Shown piece after piece: positions 14,700-55,095 of a DNA stretch of 64,000 bases (the stretch's first letter is position 1; each line of letters opens with the position of its first letter). The DNA is from Cohnella candidum. Its GTDB lineage: Bacteria; Bacillota; Bacilli; Paenibacillales; Paenibacillaceae. The stretch is from the NCBI RefSeq assembly GCF_003713065.1, contig NZ_CP033433.1:1151001-1215000 (forward strand), in the 5' to 3' direction. A program made the translations under genes and the position numbers. The notes under the pieces are model-generated. The model searched no databases. It was not told the DNA's origin and worked only from the letters and a program-made list of their open reading frames with translations.

Positions 14700-16436
14700 G
14701 TGATCAGTCAACTGTCATGGAAAATTGGCGGCCAGCAAGGGGAAGGCGTTGAGAGTACCGACCGTATTTTCTCGACCGCATTGAACCGGCTGGGTTATTA
14801 CCTGTACGGGTACCGTCACTTTTCCTCGCGGATCAAAGGCGGACACACGAATAACAAAATCCGCATCAGCACGAAGCCGATTCGCGCGATCTCGGACGAC
14901 TTGGACATCCTGGTGGCATTCGACCAGGAGAGCATCGATTTGAACGCGGGCGAGCTTCGTCCCGGCGGCGTCGTCGTCGCCGACGCGAAATTCTCGCCGA
15001 CGCTTCCCGAAGGCATCCAAGCGCGTCTGTTCGCCGTTCCGATCACGGCAATCGCGGAAGAGCTCGGCACATCCCTGATGAAGAACATGGTCGCATCCGG
15101 CGCGTCCTGGGCGCTGCTCGGCCTGCCGATCGAAGTGTTCAACCAAGCGGTGGAAGAAGAGTTCGGACGTAAAGGACCCGCGATCGTCGAGAAGAACATC
15201 GAAGCGGTGCGCCGCGGATCCGAATTCGTGCTGGAGCAAGCCGGCGGACCGCTCGAAGAGTTCAAGCTCGAGCCTGCCGACGGCGTGCAAAAGCTGTTCA
15301 TGATCGGCAACGAAGCGATGGCCCTGGGCTCGATCGCCGGCGGCTGCCGCCTCATGTCCGCCTATCCGATCACGCCTGCCTCCGAAATCATGGAATATTT
15401 GATCAAGAAGCTGCCGAAATTCGGCGGTACCGTCGTCCAGACGGAAGACGAAATCGCCGCCGTCACGATGGCGATCGGCGCCAACTACGCCGGCGTCCGC
15501 ACGATGACCGCTTCCGCAGGTCCGGGCCTGTCCCTGATGATGGAAGCGATCGGCCTTTCCGGCATGACGGAAACTCCGCTCGTCATCATCGATACCCAGC
15601 GCGGCGGTCCTTCCACGGGCCTTCCGACGAAGCAGGAGCAATCCGACATCAACGCGCTGATCTACGGTACCCACGGCGAGATTCCGAAGCTGGTCGTCGC
15701 TCCGAGCACCATCGAAGAGTGCTTCTACGATGTCATCGAAGCGTTCAACCTGGCTGAACAGTACCAAATCCCGGTCATCGTCGCGACTGACCTGCAGTTG
15801 TCGCTCGGCAAGCAATCCTGCGACGTGCTGGATTTCGATTCCATTCAACTCAACCGCGGCAAACTCATCGAAGGCGAACTGCCGGCTCTGGAAGAGAACC
15901 GCATGTTCAAGCGCTACGAGTTCACCGAAGACGGCGTTTCCCCGCGTGTCGTTCCGGGCATGAAATACGGAATCCACCACGTGACCGGCGTCGAGCACGA
16001 CCAGGAAGGCCGTCCTTCCGAGAACGCTCTGAACCGTCAGAAAATGATGGACAAACGCCTCGGCAAAGTTCAATCGCTCCGCGTGACCAACGCGGTGAAA
16101 GTGATCGCGGAAGATCCGACCGCCGACATCCTGATCGTCGCCATGGGTTCGACCGGCGGCACGATCGAGGAAGCCCGCGATCGTTTGACGCAAGACGGCG
16201 TCAAAACCGCGCACGTGACGGTTCGCCAAATGCATCCGTTCCCGAACGAGCTGCTCGAGCCGCATCTGCAGTCGGCGAAGAAAGTCGTCGTTCTCGAGAA
16301 TAACGCGACCGGACAGCTGGCTAACCTGATCAAGCAAAACCTCGGCTACCACGATAAGATCCAAAACGTCGTGAAATACGACGGCACGCCGTTCCTGCCT
16401 TCGGAAGTCTACAAAGCCTGCAAGGAGCTGAACTAA
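14700..16436 (+). CDS. korA: 2-oxoacid:ferredoxin oxidoreductase, alpha subunit (gamma-alpha fusion)
   Basis: This 578-residue subunit, with korB, converts 2-oxoacids such as 2-oxoglutarate to acyl-CoA and CO2 while reducing ferredoxin. The N-terminal ~190 residues are the gamma domain (KIGGQQGEGVESTDRIFS), followed by the alpha pyrimidine-binding region (AYPITPASEIMEYL, TEDEIAAVTMAIGA, ASAGPGLSLMMEAIGL, DTQRGGPSTGLPT). GTG 14700 was chosen because AGAGGAG abuts the ATG at 14691 with no spacer but is 9 bases from the GTG. Whether the substrate is 2-oxoglutarate or pyruvate cannot be read from sequence. Confidence 0.88.
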   Translation: MISQLSWKIGGQQGEGVESTDRIFSTALNRLGYYLYGYRHFSSRIKGGHTNNKIRISTKPIRAISDDLDILVAFDQESIDLNAGELRPGGVVVADAKFSPTLPEGIQARLFAVPITAIAEELGTSLMKNMVASGASWALLGLPIEVFNQAVEEEFGRKGPAIVEKNIEAVRRGSEFVLEQAGGPLEEFKLEPADGVQKLFMIGNEAMALGSIAGGCRLMSAYPITPASEIMEYLIKKLPKFGGTVVQTEDEIAAVTMAIGANYAGVRTMTASAGPGLSLMMEAIGLSGMTETPLVIIDTQRGGPSTGLPTKQEQSDINALIYGTHGEIPKLVVAPSTIEECFYDVIEAFNLAEQYQIPVIVATDLQLSLGKQSCDVLDFDSIQLNRGKLIEGELPALEENRMFKRYEFTEDGVSPRVVPGMKYGIHHVTGVEHDQEGRPSENALNRQKMMDKRLGKVQSLRVTNAVKVIAEDPTADILIVAMGSTGGTIEEARDRLTQDGVKTAHVTVRQMHPFPNELLEPHLQSAKKVVVLENNATGQLANLIKQNLGYHDKIQNVVKYDGTPFLPSEVYKACKELN

Positions 16437-16437
16437 G

Positions 16438-17304
16438 ATGGCGACATTCAAAGAGTTTCGCAATAACGTCAAGCCGAACTGGTGCCCGGGCTGCGGAGAC
16501 TTCTCCGTTCAGGCGGCGATCCAGCGCGCGGCTGCGAACGTAGGCCTCGAGCCTGAGCAGCTGGCCGTCATTTCCGGTATCGGATGCTCCGGCCGGATCT
16601 CCGGTTACATCAACGCGTACGGCCTGCACGGCATCCATGGCCGCGCTCTTCCGATCGCGCAAGGCGTGAAGCTGGCGAACCGCGAGCTGACCGTCATCGC
16701 TTCCGGCGGCGACGGTGACGGATTCGCGATCGGCATGGGACATACGGTCCATGCGATCCGCCGTAACCTGGACGTGACCTACATCGTCATGGACAACCAA
16801 ATCTACGGCCTGACCAAAGGGCAAACGTCCCCCCGCAGCGCCGAAGGTTTCAAAACGAAATCGACGCCGGAAGGCTCGATCGAGACCACGCTGTCCCCGC
16901 TCGAAATCGCCCTGTCCGCAGGCGCGACGTTCGTGGCGCAATCGTTCTCCAGCGATCTGAAGCAGCTGACGGCCCTGATCGAAGAGGGCATCAAGCACAA
17001 AGGCTTCTCGCTGATCAACGTGTTCAGCCCTTGCGTAACGTTCAACAAAGTCAACACGTACGACTGGTTCAAGGAAAACATCGTCAACCTGGAGCAATTC
17101 CCGGAATACGATCCGTCGAACCGCGTTGCGGCCATGAACAAAATCATGGAGACGCACGGCATGCTGACGGGCCTGATCTATCAGGACAAAGCACGCAAAT
17201 CTTACGAGGATCTGGCCGTCGGCTTCAAAGAGCAAGGCCTGGCCAAGCAGAAGCTGGAGCTGTCCCGCGAAGATTTCGACAAATTGTTGACCGAATTCAA
17301 GTAA
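16438..17304 (+). CDS. korB: 2-oxoacid:ferredoxin oxidoreductase, beta subunit
   Basis: This 288-residue thiamine-diphosphate-binding subunit shows the CPGCGDF motif near the N-terminus, a second GIGCSGR motif, the TPP/Mg signature GGDGDGFAIGMGH, and DNQIYGLTKGQTSP. There is no separate 4Fe-4S ferredoxin-like delta domain, as in the two-subunit enzymes of aerobes. It begins one base after the korA stop and is therefore coupled. Confidence 0.9.
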   Translation: MATFKEFRNNVKPNWCPGCGDFSVQAAIQRAAANVGLEPEQLAVISGIGCSGRISGYINAYGLHGIHGRALPIAQGVKLANRELTVIASGGDGDGFAIGMGHTVHAIRRNLDVTYIVMDNQIYGLTKGQTSPRSAEGFKTKSTPEGSIETTLSPLEIALSAGATFVAQSFSSDLKQLTALIEEGIKHKGFSLINVFSPCVTFNKVNTYDWFKENIVNLEQFPEYDPSNRVAAMNKIMETHGMLTGLIYQDKARKSYEDLAVGFKEQGLAKQKLELSREDFDKLLTEFK

Positions 17305-17327
17305 TCGCCTGAAAATATCGGAATTGC

Positions 17328-17360
17328 GAAGCGCGCGGGTTTGGACCCGCGCGCTTCTTG
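17328..17360 (+). terminator. Terminator after korB
   Basis: The 13-bp perfect stem GAAGCGCGCGGGT / ACCCGCGCGCTTC with a TTGG loop has a very short T stretch. Confidence 0.75.
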
Positions 17361-17393
17361 CGTTACAATGGAAGAAAAAAGGCGGTGGAGCCC

Positions 17394-17972
17394 ATGCAGG
17401 AACCGAAAAAAGTGCCGATTGGCGTCTCGGCTCGCCACATCCACTTGACGCAGGAGCATGTCGAAATCTTGTTTGGCCCGGGCGCCAAATTGACCGAGTT
17501 CAAGCCGCTCTCCCAGCCCAAGCAATACGCCGCGAACGAGATGGTAGCGGTATACGGCCCCAAAGGCTCGTTTCCGAAAGTCCGCATCCTCGGTCCGGCC
17601 CGAAACTTGACCCAGTTGGAAATTTCCCGTACCGACGCCTTCGTTCTCGGGATAAAAGCGCCGGTCCGCGAATCCGGGAATATCGCCGATACGCCCGGCG
17701 TTCGTATCGTGGGTCCGGCCGGCGAAGTGACGGTGAACGAAGGCGTTATCGTCGCCGCCCGCCATATTCATTTCCATACGTCCGATGCCGAAAGATGGGG
17801 CATTCAGGACAAGCAGATGCTGCGGGTGAGAATCGGAGGCGAACGGGGAGTCGTTTTCGAGAAAGTGCTGGCTCGCGTCTCCGACAACTTCGCGCTCGAC
17901 ATGCACATCGACACCGACGAGGGGAACGCGGCCGGCGTCACGACGGGCGAATTCGGAGAGATTTTGGACTAA
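17394..17972 (+). CDS. PduL-type phosphate acyltransferase (stand-alone)
   Basis: This 192-residue PduL-family enzyme exchanges CoA and phosphate on short acyl groups (acetyl/propionyl-CoA to acyl phosphate). The two PduL zinc motifs are present as VSARHIHLTQEHVE and AARHIHFHTSD, with ILGPARNLTQLEISRTD between. ATG 17394 follows GGCGGTGG. It lacks the N-terminal extension of the microcompartment copy at 35517, so it is probably a housekeeping cytosolic phosphotransacetylase working with the oxidoreductase next door (inference). Confidence 0.85.
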   Translation: MQEPKKVPIGVSARHIHLTQEHVEILFGPGAKLTEFKPLSQPKQYAANEMVAVYGPKGSFPKVRILGPARNLTQLEISRTDAFVLGIKAPVRESGNIADTPGVRIVGPAGEVTVNEGVIVAARHIHFHTSDAERWGIQDKQMLRVRIGGERGVVFEKVLARVSDNFALDMHIDTDEGNAAGVTTGEFGEILD

Positions 17973-49722: not shown

Positions 49723-50496
49723 ATGATCATTCGCGAGATTCAAGACAGCTTCGTCATGGTGACCCAGCATGACCATGCTCTGTTGTCCGGTGAGATTGCG
49801 AAGCATTTTACGGACCCGTATTTCGTAGACGGTGCGTATCGTGCGGATGTTGAGTTGGCGATCCGGGAACACGACAGGGGCTGGATTCGGCTCGACGACG
49901 CCCCGATCTGGAACGACCGTGATGCGAAGCCGTTCAGCTTCATGGACTATCCGCTGTTGCCCAAGTTGACGCACTACCGACTCGGCATCGACGAAGTCCA
50001 GGCGCAGAGCGAGTATGCGGCACTTTTGTGCAGCATGCATTATTGCTCCTTCATGGCAGGACATACGCCGGAACAAACGGAGATTGTGCGCTTCATGGCA
50101 TAGGAACATGAGCGGCAGCGGCAGATCGCGGACAAGATCGATTTGCCGCCTGCCGATACCGTTCGGCGGCATTTCGGGCTCCTCCAGCTGTGCGATGACA
50201 TCTCGCTTTACGTGTGCCTGAACAATCCTGGAGCCACGAAGACAGAGGAGCATCCTTGGTACGTGGACGGATTCCGCAAGTCGGAAGGATTAGGACCTGC
50301 AGGTCAAGGTAAGTTGGTTGCATGTTGGGTGAGTGAGGCGGAGGTAGGGTTTGATCCTATGCCGTTTGTAGGCGGGTTTACGGCGAAGTTGAGGCAGAAG
50401 GTTGTGCCGAAGGAACTGATCAAGCAGGAAGGGTTGCAGGAAGCGTATTGGAGAGCGGCGTGGTGGGAGCAAGAGATCGGCTTTGTCGGCAAGTAG
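49723..50496 (+). pseudogene. DUF3891 protein interrupted by an in-frame amber codon
   Basis: One continuous frame of 257 codons encodes a DUF3891-type protein (MIIREIQDSFVMVTQHDHAL, IREHDRGWIRLDDAP, SMHYCSFMAGHTPEQ, then EHERQRQIADKI and beyond). It is broken only by TAG at 50101-50103, where a sense codon is expected before the EHERQ segment. The downstream half could restart internally at 50143. The function of the family is unknown; the His-rich pattern suggests a metal-dependent hydrolase-like fold. Confidence 0.7.
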
Positions 50497-50550: not shown

Positions 50551-50602
50551 TCTGACAAGCGATTCTTCATGAATGTAGAGGAAAGATATGGTAGAATTAT
50601 TT

Positions 50603-50626
50603 GTGCGAATTCGCAGAACATTAGTT
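50603..50626 (+). repeat. Right half of an attC-like site at the left array boundary
   Basis: GTGCGAATTCGCAGAAC followed by ATTAGTT resembles the 3' end (L'-R') of the complete repeats. CGCAGAACATTAG (50612-50624) is identical to 51632-51644 of repeat B. No matching left half is seen upstream. Confidence 0.6.
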
Positions 50627-50668
50627 ATATGACATACCCTAAATTCTACAAAATGAAGGTGTAATTAT

Positions 50669-51007
50669 ATGACAAGCAACGAATTATTTAATTTATTAAA
50701 GACGGAAATACACTCAATTTTATTCTTAAGTGGATATGAAATTATTGAAGAGCAGTACCCTCCTGAATTCTTTGGGAGTAGGTACATTACTTTCTCAAAT
50801 GCAAATTCAGTAATTAGATTGGTATGGGATGGAAAAGAATCTTATTTTATACTTGAAGAATATATCGGTTTTAATGAAATTCTTAAGATTAATGAGTGGA
50901 GCGATATTGAAACAATGAAGTACGTCAAAGAAGAAGTGGATGATAAGTACATAGAAAACTTCATAAATCAGTTCATAGCATCTTTACTGAAATCGACTAA
51001 TAACTAA
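50669..51007 (+). CDS. Cassette 1: hypothetical protein related to the 27349 product
   Basis: This 112-residue acidic protein in AT-rich DNA belongs to no family I recognise. It has a helix (LLKTEIHSILFLSGYEII), then strands SRYITFSNANSVIRLVWDG and SYFILEEY, then a helical tail. The pattern GY-I...RY--FS...RL-WDG...FIL--Y is shared with the chromosomal 27349 protein. It is preceded by GAAGGTG and followed 37 bases later by the first complete attC-like repeat. Confidence 0.65.
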   Translation: MTSNELFNLLKTEIHSILFLSGYEIIEEQYPPEFFGSRYITFSNANSVIRLVWDGKESYFILEEYIGFNEILKINEWSDIETMKYVKEEVDDKYIENFINQFIASLLKSTNN

Positions 51008-51044
51008 TTTAATTTGAAATGCAATGCTACGAAGAGGGTACGTC

Positions 51045-51206
51045 ATATAACATCGCATTCACGCATCACAGCCTTCGGCTGCTCGGTCCGCCTGAGGCAT
51101 TTCGATGGAGTTGGGTCAGGCGGACAACCCTGCGAACCTAACCGCGTCGCGGCCGCCCCGTTGGGGCTTAAGGTTCTCGGGTTCGTGAATACGAGAGACG
51201 TTAGAT
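51045..51206 (+). repeat. attC-like repeat A
   Basis: This is a 162-bp structured element. The outer boxes are ATATAAC (51045-51051) and GTTAGAT (51200-51206, perfect GTTRRRY). The inner boxes are GCATTCACG (51055-51063) and CGTGAATA (51184-51191). Internally GTCCGCCTGA pairs with TCAGGCGGAC, and GAACCTAA with TTAAGGTTC. Single-strand folding would give one long imperfect hairpin, as attC sites require. Confidence 0.7.
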
Positions 51207-51241
51207 GAAAGATACGTGGAAAAACGATTAAAGATTGAAAG

Positions 51242-51457
51242 ATGATAAACCATTTGAAAAACCAAATGAAAATAAACACCAAGAAAGGACGATGTTATTT
51301 GATTGGATTACTTGTAGTGGTTTTATTCGTTGGATTAGCTGGCATTATAGGAAATCAGTATTCAGGACTTAAAAGAATGGAATCAATACAAAGATCATTA
51401 GACGATATAAATCAGATATTACGAGAGATGAATAAAAGGAAAGAGAATGAATTTTGA
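51242..51457 (+). CDS. Cassette 2: small membrane protein
   Basis: This 71-residue protein has a basic N-terminus (MINHLKNQMKINTKKGR), one membrane span (YLIGLLVVVLFVGLAGIIG) and a coiled-coil-like tail (LKRMESIQRSLDDINQILRE). There is no recognised family. It begins 36 bases after repeat A and ends 28 bases before repeat B, so it is the only gene of its cassette. A later ATG near 51266 is possible. Confidence 0.55.
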   Translation: MINHLKNQMKINTKKGRCYLIGLLVVVLFVGLAGIIGNQYSGLKRMESIQRSLDDINQILREMNKRKENEF

Positions 51458-51484
51458 ATTGTATTTCAGGCGGACGTATCCATC

Positions 51485-51646
51485 AGATAACACCGTATTC
51501 ATGCATCGCAGCCTGATGGCTGCTCGGTCCGCTTGAGGCAATTCGAAGAAGCGGAATCAGGCGGACAACCCAGCGAACCTAACCGCGTCGCGGTCGCCCC
51601 GTTGGGCTTAAGTTTCTCGGGTTCGTGAATACGCAGAACATTAGGC
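51485..51646 (+). repeat. attC-like repeat B
   Basis: This 162-bp element has outer boxes AGATAAC and ATTAGGC (one mismatch to GTTRRRY) and inner boxes GTATTCATG and CGTGAATAC. The internal GTCCGCTTGA/TCAGGCGGAC pair and the AACCTAACCGCGTCGCGG core are shared with repeats A and D. Confidence 0.7.
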
Positions 51647-51673
51647 GAAATTCTAAGCTAAAGGGAGAGAAAA

Positions 51674-52477
51674 ATGAAGAAACGGAAGATCTCGGAGAGT
51701 CTTATCCGAGAATTAAACAGTTTACAAAACACTAGAAATACATTAGAAGAGTTTCTTCAAAACTTTATTAGTAACTCATCCAGATATGTAATATTTATGC
51801 ATGATATTTTAGCTAAAAACGCGAGTAAAGATTACATAATGGTTCCTGTTTCTCAATACATCGCATCATTAATAACTTGTTGGGAGACTTATTTCAGAGA
51901 TATGTTTGTTTATTTAGCGTCCACTGATGAGCAGTTCCTTAGAGATGTCATAAGACATAATAATATTAATGTTGAAGAAGATGACCTAATTCGAAATGAA
52001 TTGTCAATAGGGGAGTTTGTAAGTAAGTTTTTTAACTTTCAAAACCTTGAGGATACTGAGAATGCATTTTCACCACTTTATGAAGGTAATAGTTTCTTTA
52101 AGGCTCTAAGCGAGTATGAACTACCATTTGTTCTATTTAGGAAAGGAATAGTTACACATATTTCATTGATTGAGCTTGATCAAAACTGGTATGAACTGAT
52201 AAATACACTTTTTAATATACGTCATAATATTGTCCATGATGCCAATTATCGATTAGAACTTACTAGTGATTTTATTTCTAGAGCAGAAAGTATTTGTATT
52301 GTTTTACCCCAAATTGTTGGTCAATTTGTTTCAGAAAAGTATGGTGTTGAAAGACCGGTTGTTGACATAGAACATGGAACAATAAAAAAAATAGTTTCTG
52401 GAGACGTAGATAAAAAATTTGGCTATGTATTTACTGTTCAAGATATGATCGCTAAGGATTGGATAATAAAAGATTAA
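51674..52477 (+). CDS. Cassette 3: HEPN-domain protein (candidate RNase)
   Basis: This 267-residue, mostly helical protein in AT-rich DNA has IRHNIVHDANYRLE near residue 185, which carries the HEPN motif RX4H (RHNIVH). The context of long helices before it (QYIASLITCWETYFRDMFVY) fits the RiboL-PSP-HEPN/MAE_28990-like class. HEPN proteins are metal-independent RNases frequent in toxin-antitoxin and antiphage systems. AAAGGGAGAG precedes the ATG. No nucleotidyltransferase antitoxin partner is adjacent. Confidence 0.65.
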   Translation: MKKRKISESLIRELNSLQNTRNTLEEFLQNFISNSSRYVIFMHDILAKNASKDYIMVPVSQYIASLITCWETYFRDMFVYLASTDEQFLRDVIRHNNINVEEDDLIRNELSIGEFVSKFFNFQNLEDTENAFSPLYEGNSFFKALSEYELPFVLFRKGIVTHISLIELDQNWYELINTLFNIRHNIVHDANYRLELTSDFISRAESICIVLPQIVGQFVSEKYGVERPVVDIEHGTIKKIVSGDVDKKFGYVFTVQDMIAKDWIIKD

Positions 52478-52503
52478 TATGAGTGATTGACTGTCCGAAC
52501 ATC

Positions 52504-52666
52504 GCCTAACAATGCATTCACGCAGCGGGCCTCTCCGAGTCCCTTGGTCGCCGGAGGGTTTTCGAGGATGCGAATTGAGGCGACAACCTTGCACCGACTA
52601 AGCGCATCGCGCCCGGCACTTCGTGCCTTAAGTCGGTGAGGGTTCGTGAACTCGGGAACGTTATCG
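52504..52666 (+). repeat. attC-like repeat C (divergent copy)
   Basis: This 163-bp element has a perfect R'' box GCCTAAC (RYYYAAC), inner boxes GCATTCACG and CGTGAACTC, and right box GTTATCG (degenerate). The internal stems differ in sequence but keep pairing: GTCGCC with GGCGAC, and CACCGACT with AGTCGGTG. This is covariation relative to repeats A, B and D. Confidence 0.65.
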
Positions 52667-52739
52667 GACATAACCATTGAAGGGAGATGTAAGTAGATGT
52701 AGAATTGATAGGTATAATATACCAATTGGAGGTATTTCT

Positions 52740-53222
52740 GTGGCGCGCAAAGTATTTGTAAGTTATCATCATGCGAATGATCAAACAAGAGCTACTCATC
52801 TGAGAGATACATATGGTTCCAACGACACACTGATAGATCGCTCATTACCTGACGCATATGATAGTGCGAATGATGACTACATTTTACAATTGATAAGGCA
52901 AAATCATTTAAAAGAATCGACCGTGACTATTGTGCTTATTGGAAGTGAAACTTATAAGCGTAAATGGGTCGATTGGGAGATTTATTCTTCTTTAAGACCA
53001 TATGGAAGTAGATCTAGGAATGGGCTTCTTGGTATTTACCTTCCTAATTACGGTGAAGTACCGGCAAGATTATTGGATAATATTAATAGTGGTTACGCAG
53101 TCACGATGAACTGGGGAAATATCTCATGGCAACTAACTAGCAAAATCGAAGAAGCGTTTCAAAATAGAGATAAAGACCACCTCGTTAGAAATTCAAGGAC
53201 GAGGAGACAACGGAACAGCTGA
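52740..53222 (+). CDS. Cassette 4a: MTH538/ThsB-like TIR-domain protein
   Basis: This 160-residue single-domain protein is of the DUF1863 (MTH538 TIR-like) type, the fold of ThsB in Thoeris antiphage systems. It has KVFVSYHHANDQTRA at the N-terminus, VTIVLIGSETYKRKWVDWEI in the middle (the Glu of DWEI is the candidate catalytic residue), and GLLGIYLPNYG. GTG 52740 is chosen because TTGGAGG lies 7 bases before. The stop overlaps the next ATG (TGATG), so the two proteins are made together. Confidence 0.75.
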   Translation: MARKVFVSYHHANDQTRATHLRDTYGSNDTLIDRSLPDAYDSANDDYILQLIRQNHLKESTVTIVLIGSETYKRKWVDWEIYSSLRPYGSRSRNGLLGIYLPNYGEVPARLLDNINSGYAVTMNWGNISWQLTSKIEEAFQNRDKDHLVRNSRTRRQRNS

Positions 53223-53896
53223 TGGCAAAACGGAAACGAAAAAAAAGGGGGAACCGTTCATTGACAATAGTTGCTTTGCTTTTCTTGGTTCTTTCCTTGA
53301 TTTTTTTCGCTATTGATTTTTTTAGAGCATACAATCCAGGGAAATTATCACTGTCTGCTCCTTTTGGGCTCGGAAATATAGAGCTTGATAGGGCCACTCT
53401 TAGTGAAAAAGAACTGGATATTGCTTGGAAACTATATGTTCAACTTTCTACAAGAAAAGCTTCGATCCCTTTAGATGACAACGATATTATTTCTGAGGTA
53501 TATGACTCGTGGTATCAACTCTTTACAACTACAAGAGAATATTTAATTGAAATGCCAGCCAAAGATATTGAAGAAAATGAGAACGCACAGAAAATAATCG
53601 CTTTAGCATTAGATGTCATAAATAAAGGTCTACGTCCTCATCTCACTGAATGGCAAGGCAAGTATCGAAAATGGTACAATGAAGCTATACAAAAAGAAGA
53701 GTTTAAAGGCAAATCACCACAAGAGATCCAAAAAAAATATCCTCACTATAATGAGTTGATTGACGATATGAAGATTGTAAATACCGAACTCCTAAAATAC
53801 GCAACTCAACTCAAAAGATTTTCACATGAAAAGCCCGCGAATAATCCAACAAAAATTATTACATGGTTTAAAGAAAAATGGAAATCGTCATTTTAG
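53222..53896 (+). CDS. Cassette 4b: membrane-anchored partner of the TIR protein
   Basis: This 224-residue protein has a very basic N-terminus (AKRKRKKRGNR), one membrane span (~residues 13-33, SLTIVALLFLVLSLIFFAID) and a ~180-residue helical cytosolic or external domain (KELDIAWKLYVQLSTRKASI, IIALALDVINKGLRPHL). There is no known family. Translational coupling to the ThsB-like gene suggests a sensor/effector pair in which the membrane protein could be the effector; this is inference. Confidence 0.65.
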   Translation: MAKRKRKKRGNRSLTIVALLFLVLSLIFFAIDFFRAYNPGKLSLSAPFGLGNIELDRATLSEKELDIAWKLYVQLSTRKASIPLDDNDIISEVYDSWYQLFTTTREYLIEMPAKDIEENENAQKIIALALDVINKGLRPHLTEWQGKYRKWYNEAIQKEEFKGKSPQEIQKKYPHYNELIDDMKIVNTELLKYATQLKRFSHEKPANNPTKIITWFKEKWKSSF

Positions 53897-53944
53897 CGTC
53901 CTTCAACAGGACGTTTTTTGTTCATTTCAAGAAGTGGTTACGTC

Positions 53945-54101
53945 CGATAACACCGTATTCTCGCAGCCTTACGGCAGCTCGGTCCGCTCGATGCATATCG
54001 AGGGAGCTGGTTCAGGCGGACAACCCTGCGAACCTAACCGCGTCGCGGCCGCCCCGTTGGGACTTAAGTTCTCAGGTTCGTGACTACGAGGAAAGTTAGG
54101 T
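53945..54101 (+). repeat. attC-like repeat D
   Basis: This 157-bp element has outer boxes CGATAAC and GTTAGGT (perfect GTTRRRY), with inner GTATTCTCG and CGTGACTAC. The core AACCTAACCGCGTCGCGG is identical to repeat A. Confidence 0.7.
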
Positions 54102-54204
54102 GAAATACCCGAAAGCTTGTATTCCAATATTGACAATAAGTCACTAAATATGACAAGCTTTAAATAACCTGTTTTTACCACTTCAAAAATCGTGGAGTGA
54201 TATT

Positions 54205-54978
54205 ATGAGCTATACCTATTACAACATGGGGCATCTTCAAAGAGGACAAGTTGTTGAAGTAACACTATCAGGAAATGCAGCAAATGTCAGGCTAATGGAT
54301 AGTAGCAATTATAATAATTACAAGAATGGTCGAAATCACCGCTATTATGGTGGACTGGCTAAACGTTCACCTGTCAACTTAACAGTTCCTAGCTCTGGTA
54401 ATTGGCATGTAACGGTCGATCTGAATGGTTTAAGGGGATCTGTGAGATCTTCAGTTCGTGTACTCCCTAGCCCATTACCAACCATACAAGATAGACCACT
54501 TTCTTCAGTACCTTCACTCATTCATAGACAAGGTGTATATGACGAAAATTCTGTAGATGACGTTAGAGATTTTGATGTCTTTATATCGCATGCTTCTGAA
54601 GATAAAGATGAGGTTGTCCGTGATCTGGCGTTAGCTTTACAAAATGAGGGATTACAAGTTTGGTATGATGAATTTGAATTGCGAATTGGTGATAGCCTTC
54701 GTAGAAAGATAGATAAAGGACTTGCAAGAAGTAAATTTGGAATTGTTGTATTGTCCCCTTATTTTATAAGTAAAGGTTGGACAAATTACGAATTAGATGG
54801 AATCATTACAAAAGCTGTTACCGGGGAACAGGTTATTCTACCTATTTGGCATAACATCACTAAAAAAGAGGTAATTGATTATAGCCCTTCACTTGCTGAT
54901 AAATTAGCCAGAAGTACTGCTACACATACTGTTGAAGAGATTGCTACTGAGATATCTACCTTAATAAAGGGGCAATAA
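54205..54978 (+). CDS. Cassette 5: DUF1883-TIR protein
   Basis: In this 257-residue two-domain protein, residues ~1-95 are a DUF1883 beta domain (GHLQRGQVVEVTLSGNAANV, GNWHVTVDLNGLRGSV). Residues ~120-257 are a TIR_2 domain (FDVFISHASEDKDEVVRDLA, LQVWYDEFELRIGDSLRRKI, KFGIVVLSPYFISKGWTNYE). The Glu in NYELDG is the expected NADase catalytic residue. Such proteins are candidate NAD-depleting immune effectors. GTGGAGTG precedes the ATG. It is the last cassette of the array. Confidence 0.78.
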   Translation: MSYTYYNMGHLQRGQVVEVTLSGNAANVRLMDSSNYNNYKNGRNHRYYGGLAKRSPVNLTVPSSGNWHVTVDLNGLRGSVRSSVRVLPSPLPTIQDRPLSSVPSLIHRQGVYDENSVDDVRDFDVFISHASEDKDEVVRDLALALQNEGLQVWYDEFELRIGDSLRRKIDKGLARSKFGIVVLSPYFISKGWTNYELDGIITKAVTGEQVILPIWHNITKKEVIDYSPSLADKLARSTATHTVEEIATEISTLIKGQ

Positions 54979-54984
54979 CATCGT

Positions 54985-55022
54985 ACACCTAGTCCTATTT
55001 TTTTGAGGGCAGGTGTTTTTCT
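54985..55022 (+). terminator. Terminator after the last cassette gene
   Basis: ACACCTaGTCCT pairs with AGGGCAGGTGT (one G-U pair) around a T-rich loop and is followed by TTTTTCTTT. Confidence 0.65.
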
Positions 55023-55065
55023 TTAACAATGATGTTTTAAGTATTCCAAGGATGTCGGATACTTC

Positions 55066-55095
55066 ACTTAACATAGTATTCACACGGCGGGCCAA
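55066..55095 (+). repeat. Left half of an attC-like site at the right array boundary
   Basis: ACTTAAC (perfect RYYYAAC), then ATA, then GTATTCACAC and CGGCGGGCC match the 5' (R''-L'') part of the repeats, closest to repeat C. The remaining ~130 bp of the element is absent. From 55096 to 55288 I see no gene or further repeat. Confidence 0.6.

Follow-up and report, generated by a model that had tools for sequence, protein, structure and literature searches.

A five-cassette, integron-like array in Cohnella candidum and the tyrosine recombinase predicted to move it

We analyzed a 64,000-nucleotide stretch of the Cohnella candidum chromosome (contig NZ_CP033433.1, positions 1,151,001 to 1,215,000; hereafter the window), in which a preliminary description had read four repeats and the genes between them as a mobile cassette array with sites of the attC type known from integrons. 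All four repeats are present where it placed them (51045-51206, 51485-51646, 52504-52666 and 53945-54101), with the outer and inner boxes that it reported, and they score 117-183 bits against a covariance model of the repeat family. As the window repeats are part of the seed of that model, their own scores prove nothing, and the array itself is the proof. The AT-rich island in which they had been said to lie is real: G+C is 37.5-43.6% over 50-55 kb, compared with 52-67% in upstream windows and 49-57% from 56 kb on. This is very probably an integron-like array of five cassettes, predicted to be moved by a recombinase whose gene lies beside a second array of 30 copies of the same repeat.

The array begins at an attI-like half site and ends at the left arm of a decayed fifth attC. 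Its five plus-strand units are indeed five cassettes, but they do not hold one gene each, since cassette 4 has two open reading frames (ORFs) and the array six genes. The features are as follows.

50596..50624, plus strand: attI-like half site bounding the array on the left, with a predicted cut after 50624; agrees with the attI consensus of relatives
50625..51200, plus strand: cassette 1, with ORF 50669-51007 (112 aa), without a confident family
51034..51206, plus strand: attC A with its left arm (arm 51034-51051, core 51045-51206)
51201..51640, plus strand: cassette 2, with ORF 51242-51457 (71 aa), no family above cut-off
51474..51646, plus strand: attC B with its left arm
51641..52660, plus strand: cassette 3, with ORF 51674-52477 (267 aa); weak HEPN_RiboL-PSP match, E 1.5e-4, below cut-off
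52493..52666, plus strand: attC C with its left arm
52661..54095, plus strand: cassette 4, with ORFs 52740-53222 (TIR; ThsB_TIR, E 2.7e-22) and 53222-53896 (224 aa, no family)
53934..54101, plus strand: attC D with its left arm
54096..55093, plus strand: cassette 5, with ORF 54205-54978 (DUF1883, E 7.2e-37, plus TIR); right end decayed
55055..55093, plus strand: remnant of a decayed fifth attC (its left arm and left inner box), read by eye

What had gone unnoticed is that the 7-nt outer box belongs to a longer arm of 18 nt, of which it forms the inner part, and that this arm is common to the start of the same cassette and not to the other end of its own site. Cassette 1 starts with TTATATGACATACCC, which reverse-complements the arm preceding attC A and keeps the conserved C/A mismatch; this cassette is a good match to its attI-side start. 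The three testable arms of the window, those of cassettes 2, 3 and 4, match at 12, 11 and 15 of 16 positions. At the right limit, the decayed site reads GGATACTTCACTTAAC against the cassette 5 start GTTAGGTGAAATACCC, by eye a match of 13/16 with the C/A mismatch retained; the covariance model did not call a site at 55055-55093. At the left limit, the half site reads GCGAATTCGCAGAACATTAG^TTATATG, and the attI consensus, drawn from 16 rows of which this half site is one, is TT...GAAnTTCGnAGAAnAGACG^TTA.

The preliminary description had proposed a search for further copies, in this genome and in relatives, and had held that copies scattered genome-wide would speak against a cassette array. A covariance model built from 28 repeat copies finds 34 in the closed 5.29-Mb genome, namely the four in the window and 30 at C1:1668468-1689247, these 30 all on the minus strand; the repeats also occur in many relatives. 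Within each array the copies face one way, with one repeat per gene unit, and among the 150 of 1558 candidates that were scored none lay outside the two arrays. The larger array, which we call the main array, is on the same chromosome roughly half a megabase from the window, and is adjoined upstream by an attI-like site and a tyrosine recombinase gene.

This gene (C1:1689787-1690914, minus strand) is intact, encodes 375 amino acids, lies directly upstream of the main array and points into it. It is one of five tyrosine recombinases found in the closed genome by a PF00589 search; none of the five is inside the window (1.151-1.215 Mb), the nearest being found at 1.646 Mb. By sequence the closest solved structures are XerA-like enzymes and IntI4, and the best structural match of the predicted model (mean pLDDT 84, pTM 0.57) is IntI4 (2a3v). 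In an alignment of 29 proteins the Arg, Lys, His-x-x-Arg, His and Tyr columns, which are the catalytic residues, are invariant. A tyrosine recombinase with the IntI-specific insertion had been suggested as the enzyme to look for; the recombinase is there beside the arrays, the insertion is not.

The recombinase instead has an N-terminal domain resembling HARP. Nine proteins in the 29-protein alignment have a Pfam HARP match at E<=0.01, with the closed genome's own recombinase at E 0.0052, below cut-off. A profile of 33 such N-terminal domains, run against the PDB, places the SMARCAL1 HARP structure 4o66 first (E 2.8e-5). Foldseek of the domain model (pLDDT 93.3) gives weak matches, to XPB at E 0.098 and to 4o66 at E 0.26, and nothing at E<=0.001. 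The HARP-like domain was not seen in two IntI proteins with long N-termini. HARP domains bind branched DNA, and we therefore propose this domain as the reader of a folded cassette end.

The link between repeat and recombinase recurs in the Paenibacillaceae. Repeat A has matches in 162 of 295 genomes of the family and 16 of 19 genera (E<=1e-3), and the recombinase in 81 of 295 genomes and 13 of 19 genera (E<=1e-60); at E<=1e-40 the recombinase is found in 18 of 26 repeat-bearing genomes. A first set of 18 recombinase loci came from 17 of 18 genomes already known to hold both elements. Repeats lie downstream of the gene in 17 of these loci, all on the gene's strand, and the remaining locus ends at a contig edge. 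Twenty further loci were chosen for the recombinase and not for repeats, according to their position in the list and the space available on the contig rather than at random. Nineteen have at least two repeats downstream, with 167 repeat hits on the gene's strand and 0 on the other, and the one exception sits at a contig end with about 1 kb left after the gene. Dozens of Paenibacillaceae relatives carry rows of mostly one-gene cassettes, probably swappable, beside such a recombinase.

The arms tie the cassettes to a circular form. The first bases of a cassette are the reverse complement, over 18 nt, of the bases before its own attC, one cassette away, and arms so placed can meet only in a circle. 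In classical integrons, likewise, the start of a cassette pairs with the box that precedes the attC of that cassette, the two having been joined in the circle. Across 28 cassettes of the closed genome, three of them in the window, the mean flank match is 12.1/16, compared with 6.70 +- 0.39 of 16 for shuffled partners (the highest of 5000 shuffles reached 8.18) and 6.4 of 16 when an arm is paired within its own site. All 12 arrays of relatives with at least eight full repeats beat their permutations, a result reached by 0/2000 permutations in 11 of them and by 1/2000 in L178; three loci had too few repeats for the test. Pooled, 189 of 226 neighboring pairs match at >=13/16 versus 82 of 3943 non-adjacent pairs, and in the second locus set the counts are 88 of 136 adjacent pairs and 16 of 1025 others. 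L248, L237 and L239, also from relatives, hold repeats with little or patchy arm memory, and are possibly old or decaying arrays.

A position profile was drawn from the 202 of 225 pairs that match at >=11/16, a selection made on positions -16 to -1 only. The match is 90-100% at -9 to -5 and at -17 to -12 (92% at -17) and 49% at -10. The arm ends sharply, falling to 70% at -18 and to 14-26% at -19 to -24, and positions from -17 outward played no part in the selection. At -11 the match is broken by a fixed C/A pair, seen in 192 of 202 pairs and in 81 of 88 in the second set. Read on the top strand this pair is a C-A mismatch, on the bottom strand a G-T wobble, and it would therefore favor the bottom strand. 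How new cassettes are born is a long-standing question, and 18-nt arms of this kind provide both a sharp mark of cassette boundaries and a handle on that birth.

Both by inspection and by our covariance model, the sites have an anatomy of the attC type: two pairs of boxes, outer and inner, flank a core that folds. The fold of the repeats is branched, and compensatory changes are seen in 14 of its 37 pairs. In predicted folds of circle junctions the bottom strand is the more stable in 154 of 166 cases, against 48% for composition-shuffled sequence, and in 159 of 162 the circle form is more stable than the integrated one, the median difference being 10 kcal/mol. Such folding, if real, would make the circle a better substrate than the integrated site, so that capture would be favored.

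Comparison of cassettes points to junctions at G^TT. Where near-identical cassettes occupy different places, their common sequence runs from ACG^TTA to ACG^TTA: at L178 (2810-3320 and 7870-8380, 99.2% identical, one copy at attI), at L174 (2898-3481 and 3185-3768, tandem copies) and at L173 (9433-10074 and 14529-15172, 99%). A cassette shared by L171 and L174, which come from two genomes, each the one sampled for its species, is 98.3% identical. Unit ends thus vary between cassettes and between species at the cut point that the preliminary description had predicted. Relatives also differ in what they carry at the window locus itself: behind the same left neighbor, the relative G083 has an array of other cassettes, and G216 passes straight into the next gene. 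The start of the first cassette could be found by arm complementarity in 18 of 19 arrays (L182 failed), and the attI-like motif, which the window's left end fits, is conserved ahead of that start in the 16 rows. The gene left of the window array (49723-50496), which we take to be DUF3891-like, has an in-frame stop near 50101 that splits its frame. A fully identical 1222-bp insert at L174:4913-6134 and 16357-17578 (turned strand), with no counterpart in the corresponding position of L173, was considered as a cassette and rejected: attC sites are missing from both its ends, and it resembles an insertion sequence.

On the model of classical integrons, we propose that each cassette would excise as a circle, in which the two 18-nt arms and the branched core would form one long bottom-strand hairpin. 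The recombinase would cut this hairpin opposite the top-strand G^TT and exchange one strand with attI or with another attC, and the resulting junction would be resolved by replication. Speculatively, the IntI insertion being absent, the HARP-like N-terminal domain may take its place as reader of the folded DNA. Having an attI-like site and no recombinase of its own, the window array would be a satellite served in trans, similar to a cluster of attC sites lacking integron-integrases (CALIN).

Several observations weigh against this reading. The IntI-specific insertion, the additional domain located near patch III, is missing, with residues 183-241 of IntI4 (2a3v) lying opposite query residues 272-289, and the recombinase scores 202.3 bits with TIGR02249, the NCBI integron-integrase model, for which the cut-off is 265. 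That insertion is called essential for integron function in the excerpt of PMC8138268, and the IntI-specific (I2) domain is among the defining traits of IntI in that of PMC9668308. The repeat occurs in 162 of 295 genomes and the recombinase in only 81 at the limits used, and several relatives have recombinase genes broken by stops or split frames. An array of four repeats was not significant in the permutation test, the arms of window cassettes 2 and 3 match at only 12 and 11 of 16, and 37 of 226 adjacent pairs fall below 13/16. In the second set L248 is without arm memory, and several other loci lose it over part of the array. The proposed role of the HARP domain rests on one profile match and one weak fold match, and that role, recombination and single-strand reactivity are all predictions.

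Some of these points would also be expected if an integron-type system had gone inactive in the family and its arrays were decaying. The broken recombinase genes fit such a fossil, as do the eroded arms of window cassettes 2 and 3 and the decayed sites at 55055 and at the distal end of the main array. Yet the recombinase gene is intact here (375 aa), near-identical cassettes occur within one array (99%; L178, L173) and a 98% identical one in two genomes, and the arms match at >=90% at most positions in most cassettes. We consider a fossil unlikely.

More doubtful still is that this is a classical integron, in which an IntI with the usual insertion, encoded elsewhere in the genome, moves the cassettes and the neighboring recombinase is a bystander. 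The sites do look like attC, and circle memory of a like kind is found in a classical array. Against it, the genome has five tyrosine recombinases, and in the three that were measured the segment in which a true IntI has 75 residues is 35 (the array recombinase), 41 and 45 residues long. In an alignment of 138 open frames, some of them broken and some the same gene twice, the segment spans 31-38 residues in homologs whose frame runs through and 41-45 in three other tyrosine recombinases; the true IntI used for comparison, from a Planctomycetota contig, is 53.5% identical to IntI1 over 69% of its length. The link between recombinase and array also recurs in 19 of 20 loci of relatives, and we give this explanation very little weight.

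Dispersed palindromic repeats of the REP (repetitive extragenic palindromic) or bcr1 type, lying between genes by chance, would share a length near 160 bp and a strong fold. That is scarcely credible here, where all 34 copies found are in two arrays, one way in each and one per gene unit, and the arms belong to cassettes and not to sites. Structured RNA elements, such as leaders or terminators repeated between unrelated transcription units, could have a conserved fold with compensatory changes but are just as improbable, as no Rfam family matches the repeats at gathering score and a reverse-complement arm at the neighboring gene's far end would have no role in them. A mobile cassette array, as the preliminary description had read the locus, thus stands up well to the tests that could have told against it.

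Outside the family our homolog sample is uneven and no census: at least 80 named loci, of which 15 showing repeats were tested. Ten Bacteroidota loci, among the matches listed, have adjacent pairs at >=13/16, 32 pairs in all (one in L066 and two each in L074, L075, L086 and L103), and 31 of the 32 carry the same C/T at -11. Saccharibacillus (L039) adds two such C/T pairs out of two, and L116, L082, L054 and L110, among the 15 loci tested, show no arm-memory signal. The signal emerged with wider search windows; a first test with short de novo repeat models had been negative for most of 25 loci, with hints at L103 and L039.

A tree of 43 rows groups the three IntI in one clade (100/100), next to two I2-less proteins (85/80 and 88/61). 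The Paenibacillaceae and Bacteroidota rows, with several others, fall in a separate group (90/85), and support at the deep forks is too low to place IntI within or outside the I2-less group. A Planctomycetota contig (L112:7490-11002) has a true IntI gene side by side with an I2-less recombinase gene. On an Undinarchaeales contig (L040:8478-11060) are two related tandem recombinase genes, both without the IntI insertion, one of which groups loosely with IntI in the tree.

We regard the arrays as a probable hidden branch of the gene-capture system known above all for its part in spreading antibiotic resistance. We further suggest, tentatively and at somewhat less than even chance, that the Paenibacillaceae and Bacteroidota arrays may form a second great branch of integrons without I2, in which a HARP-type domain would read the folded cassette end and an 18-base lock made in the circle would favor capture over loss, and that this branch may represent the functional state that gave rise to classical IntI or alongside which IntI arose. 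How I2 could have been selected in the absence of attC sites, and attC sites in the absence of I2, is named a chicken-and-egg paradox in the excerpt of PMC4792948, which offers one answer; a cassette system that has attC-like folding sites without I2 makes it directly testable.

The cargo of the two arrays differs from what had been expected in part. Defense-type cargo, as first proposed, holds for the window, with its ThsB-like TIR and DUF1883-TIR genes and one weak HEPN-like match beside three genes without a confident family, but the main array is mixed. Its 31 units have a median of 640 bp (323-2103); 26 of them have an ORF of at least 45 aa, and in 25 of these the largest ORF runs on the array strand. 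The other five, of 422-472 bp, have no ORF of 45 aa and are similar to each other. Among 20 of the array's proteins scanned, families found were Nudix, two GNAT, two glyoxalase, DinB/MST, two GyrI-like/Cass2, GmrSD, DUF3841 and DUF6933, with LMWPc just over and SmaI below cut-off; seven of the 20 had no match. The two cassette proteins at C1:1671083-1671550 and C1:1682192-1682689 match PF14526, Cass2, an 'integron-associated effector binding protein', a hint that the cassette gene pool is common with classical integrons.

As a classical control we used Gemmatirosa kalamazoonensis plasmid 1 (L234:21607-40339, a record without annotation), with 36 detected attC sites beside an IntI. Here 9 of 35 adjacent pairs reach 13 on the 16-base score versus 11 of 1190 others. 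The arm memory spans 11 nt, position -12 matches in 3% of pairs and has C/T in 20 of 35, and from -13 outward adjacent pairs match no better than others. The logic is therefore common and the arm longer in the new arrays, though the classical length comes from this one measured array, too little to speak firmly for all classical integrons. For the 7-nt box, an earlier control with few sites (L190) agrees; in L191, L235 and the viral contigs L216-L225 our script detected no usable classical array.

Surveys call integrons extremely rare in Firmicutes (PMC9024848, excerpt), whereas 162 of the 295 sampled genomes of one family match repeat A. IntegronFinder requires a profile of the IntI-specific domain (PMC9668308, excerpt), and since integrons are recognized by that domain, surveys requiring it would skip this branch. 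The initial statement that no classical integrons are known in this group is slightly too strong for Bacillota: IntegronFinder 2.0 reports one complete integron in Firmicutes, that of Limnochorda pilosa, also Bacillota, and a few CALIN (PMC9024848). The excerpts of openly licensed papers that were searched held no account of such Paenibacillaceae arrays or of a HARP-type integron recombinase.

The arrays share with chromosomal (super)integrons a tyrosine recombinase, an attI-like site, tens of small, mostly one-gene cassettes lying nearly all in one direction, boxes like RYYYAAC/GTTRRRY, junctions at apparent G^TT points, a predicted fold favoring the bottom strand, duplicated cassettes, circle memory and two Cass2 (PF14526) proteins. 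They differ in a recombinase that lacks the IntI-specific insertion and has a HARP-like N-terminal domain, and whose gene is transcribed towards the cassettes; in sites of 96-204 bases (about 160 in this genome) with a branched core, whose covariance model found none of the classical sites of L190 at E<=0.1; and in arms of 18 nt with a C-A inside at -11, compared with 11 nt and a mismatch just outside at -12 in the one classical control. Like a CALIN, the window array is a cluster, here of four sites, beside which no recombinase was found; unlike a CALIN, it belongs to a new site family, with a recombinase and a larger array of the same sites elsewhere in the genome. The recombinase has the catalytic fold of XerA, XerC and XerD, and differs from them in heading a cassette array and in its extra N-terminal domain; Xer enzymes act on a dif site. 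By the definition printed in the excerpts of PMC9668308 and PMC8138268, which turns on the IntI-specific domain, this system is not an integron; by its anatomy and its marks of movement, it works like one.

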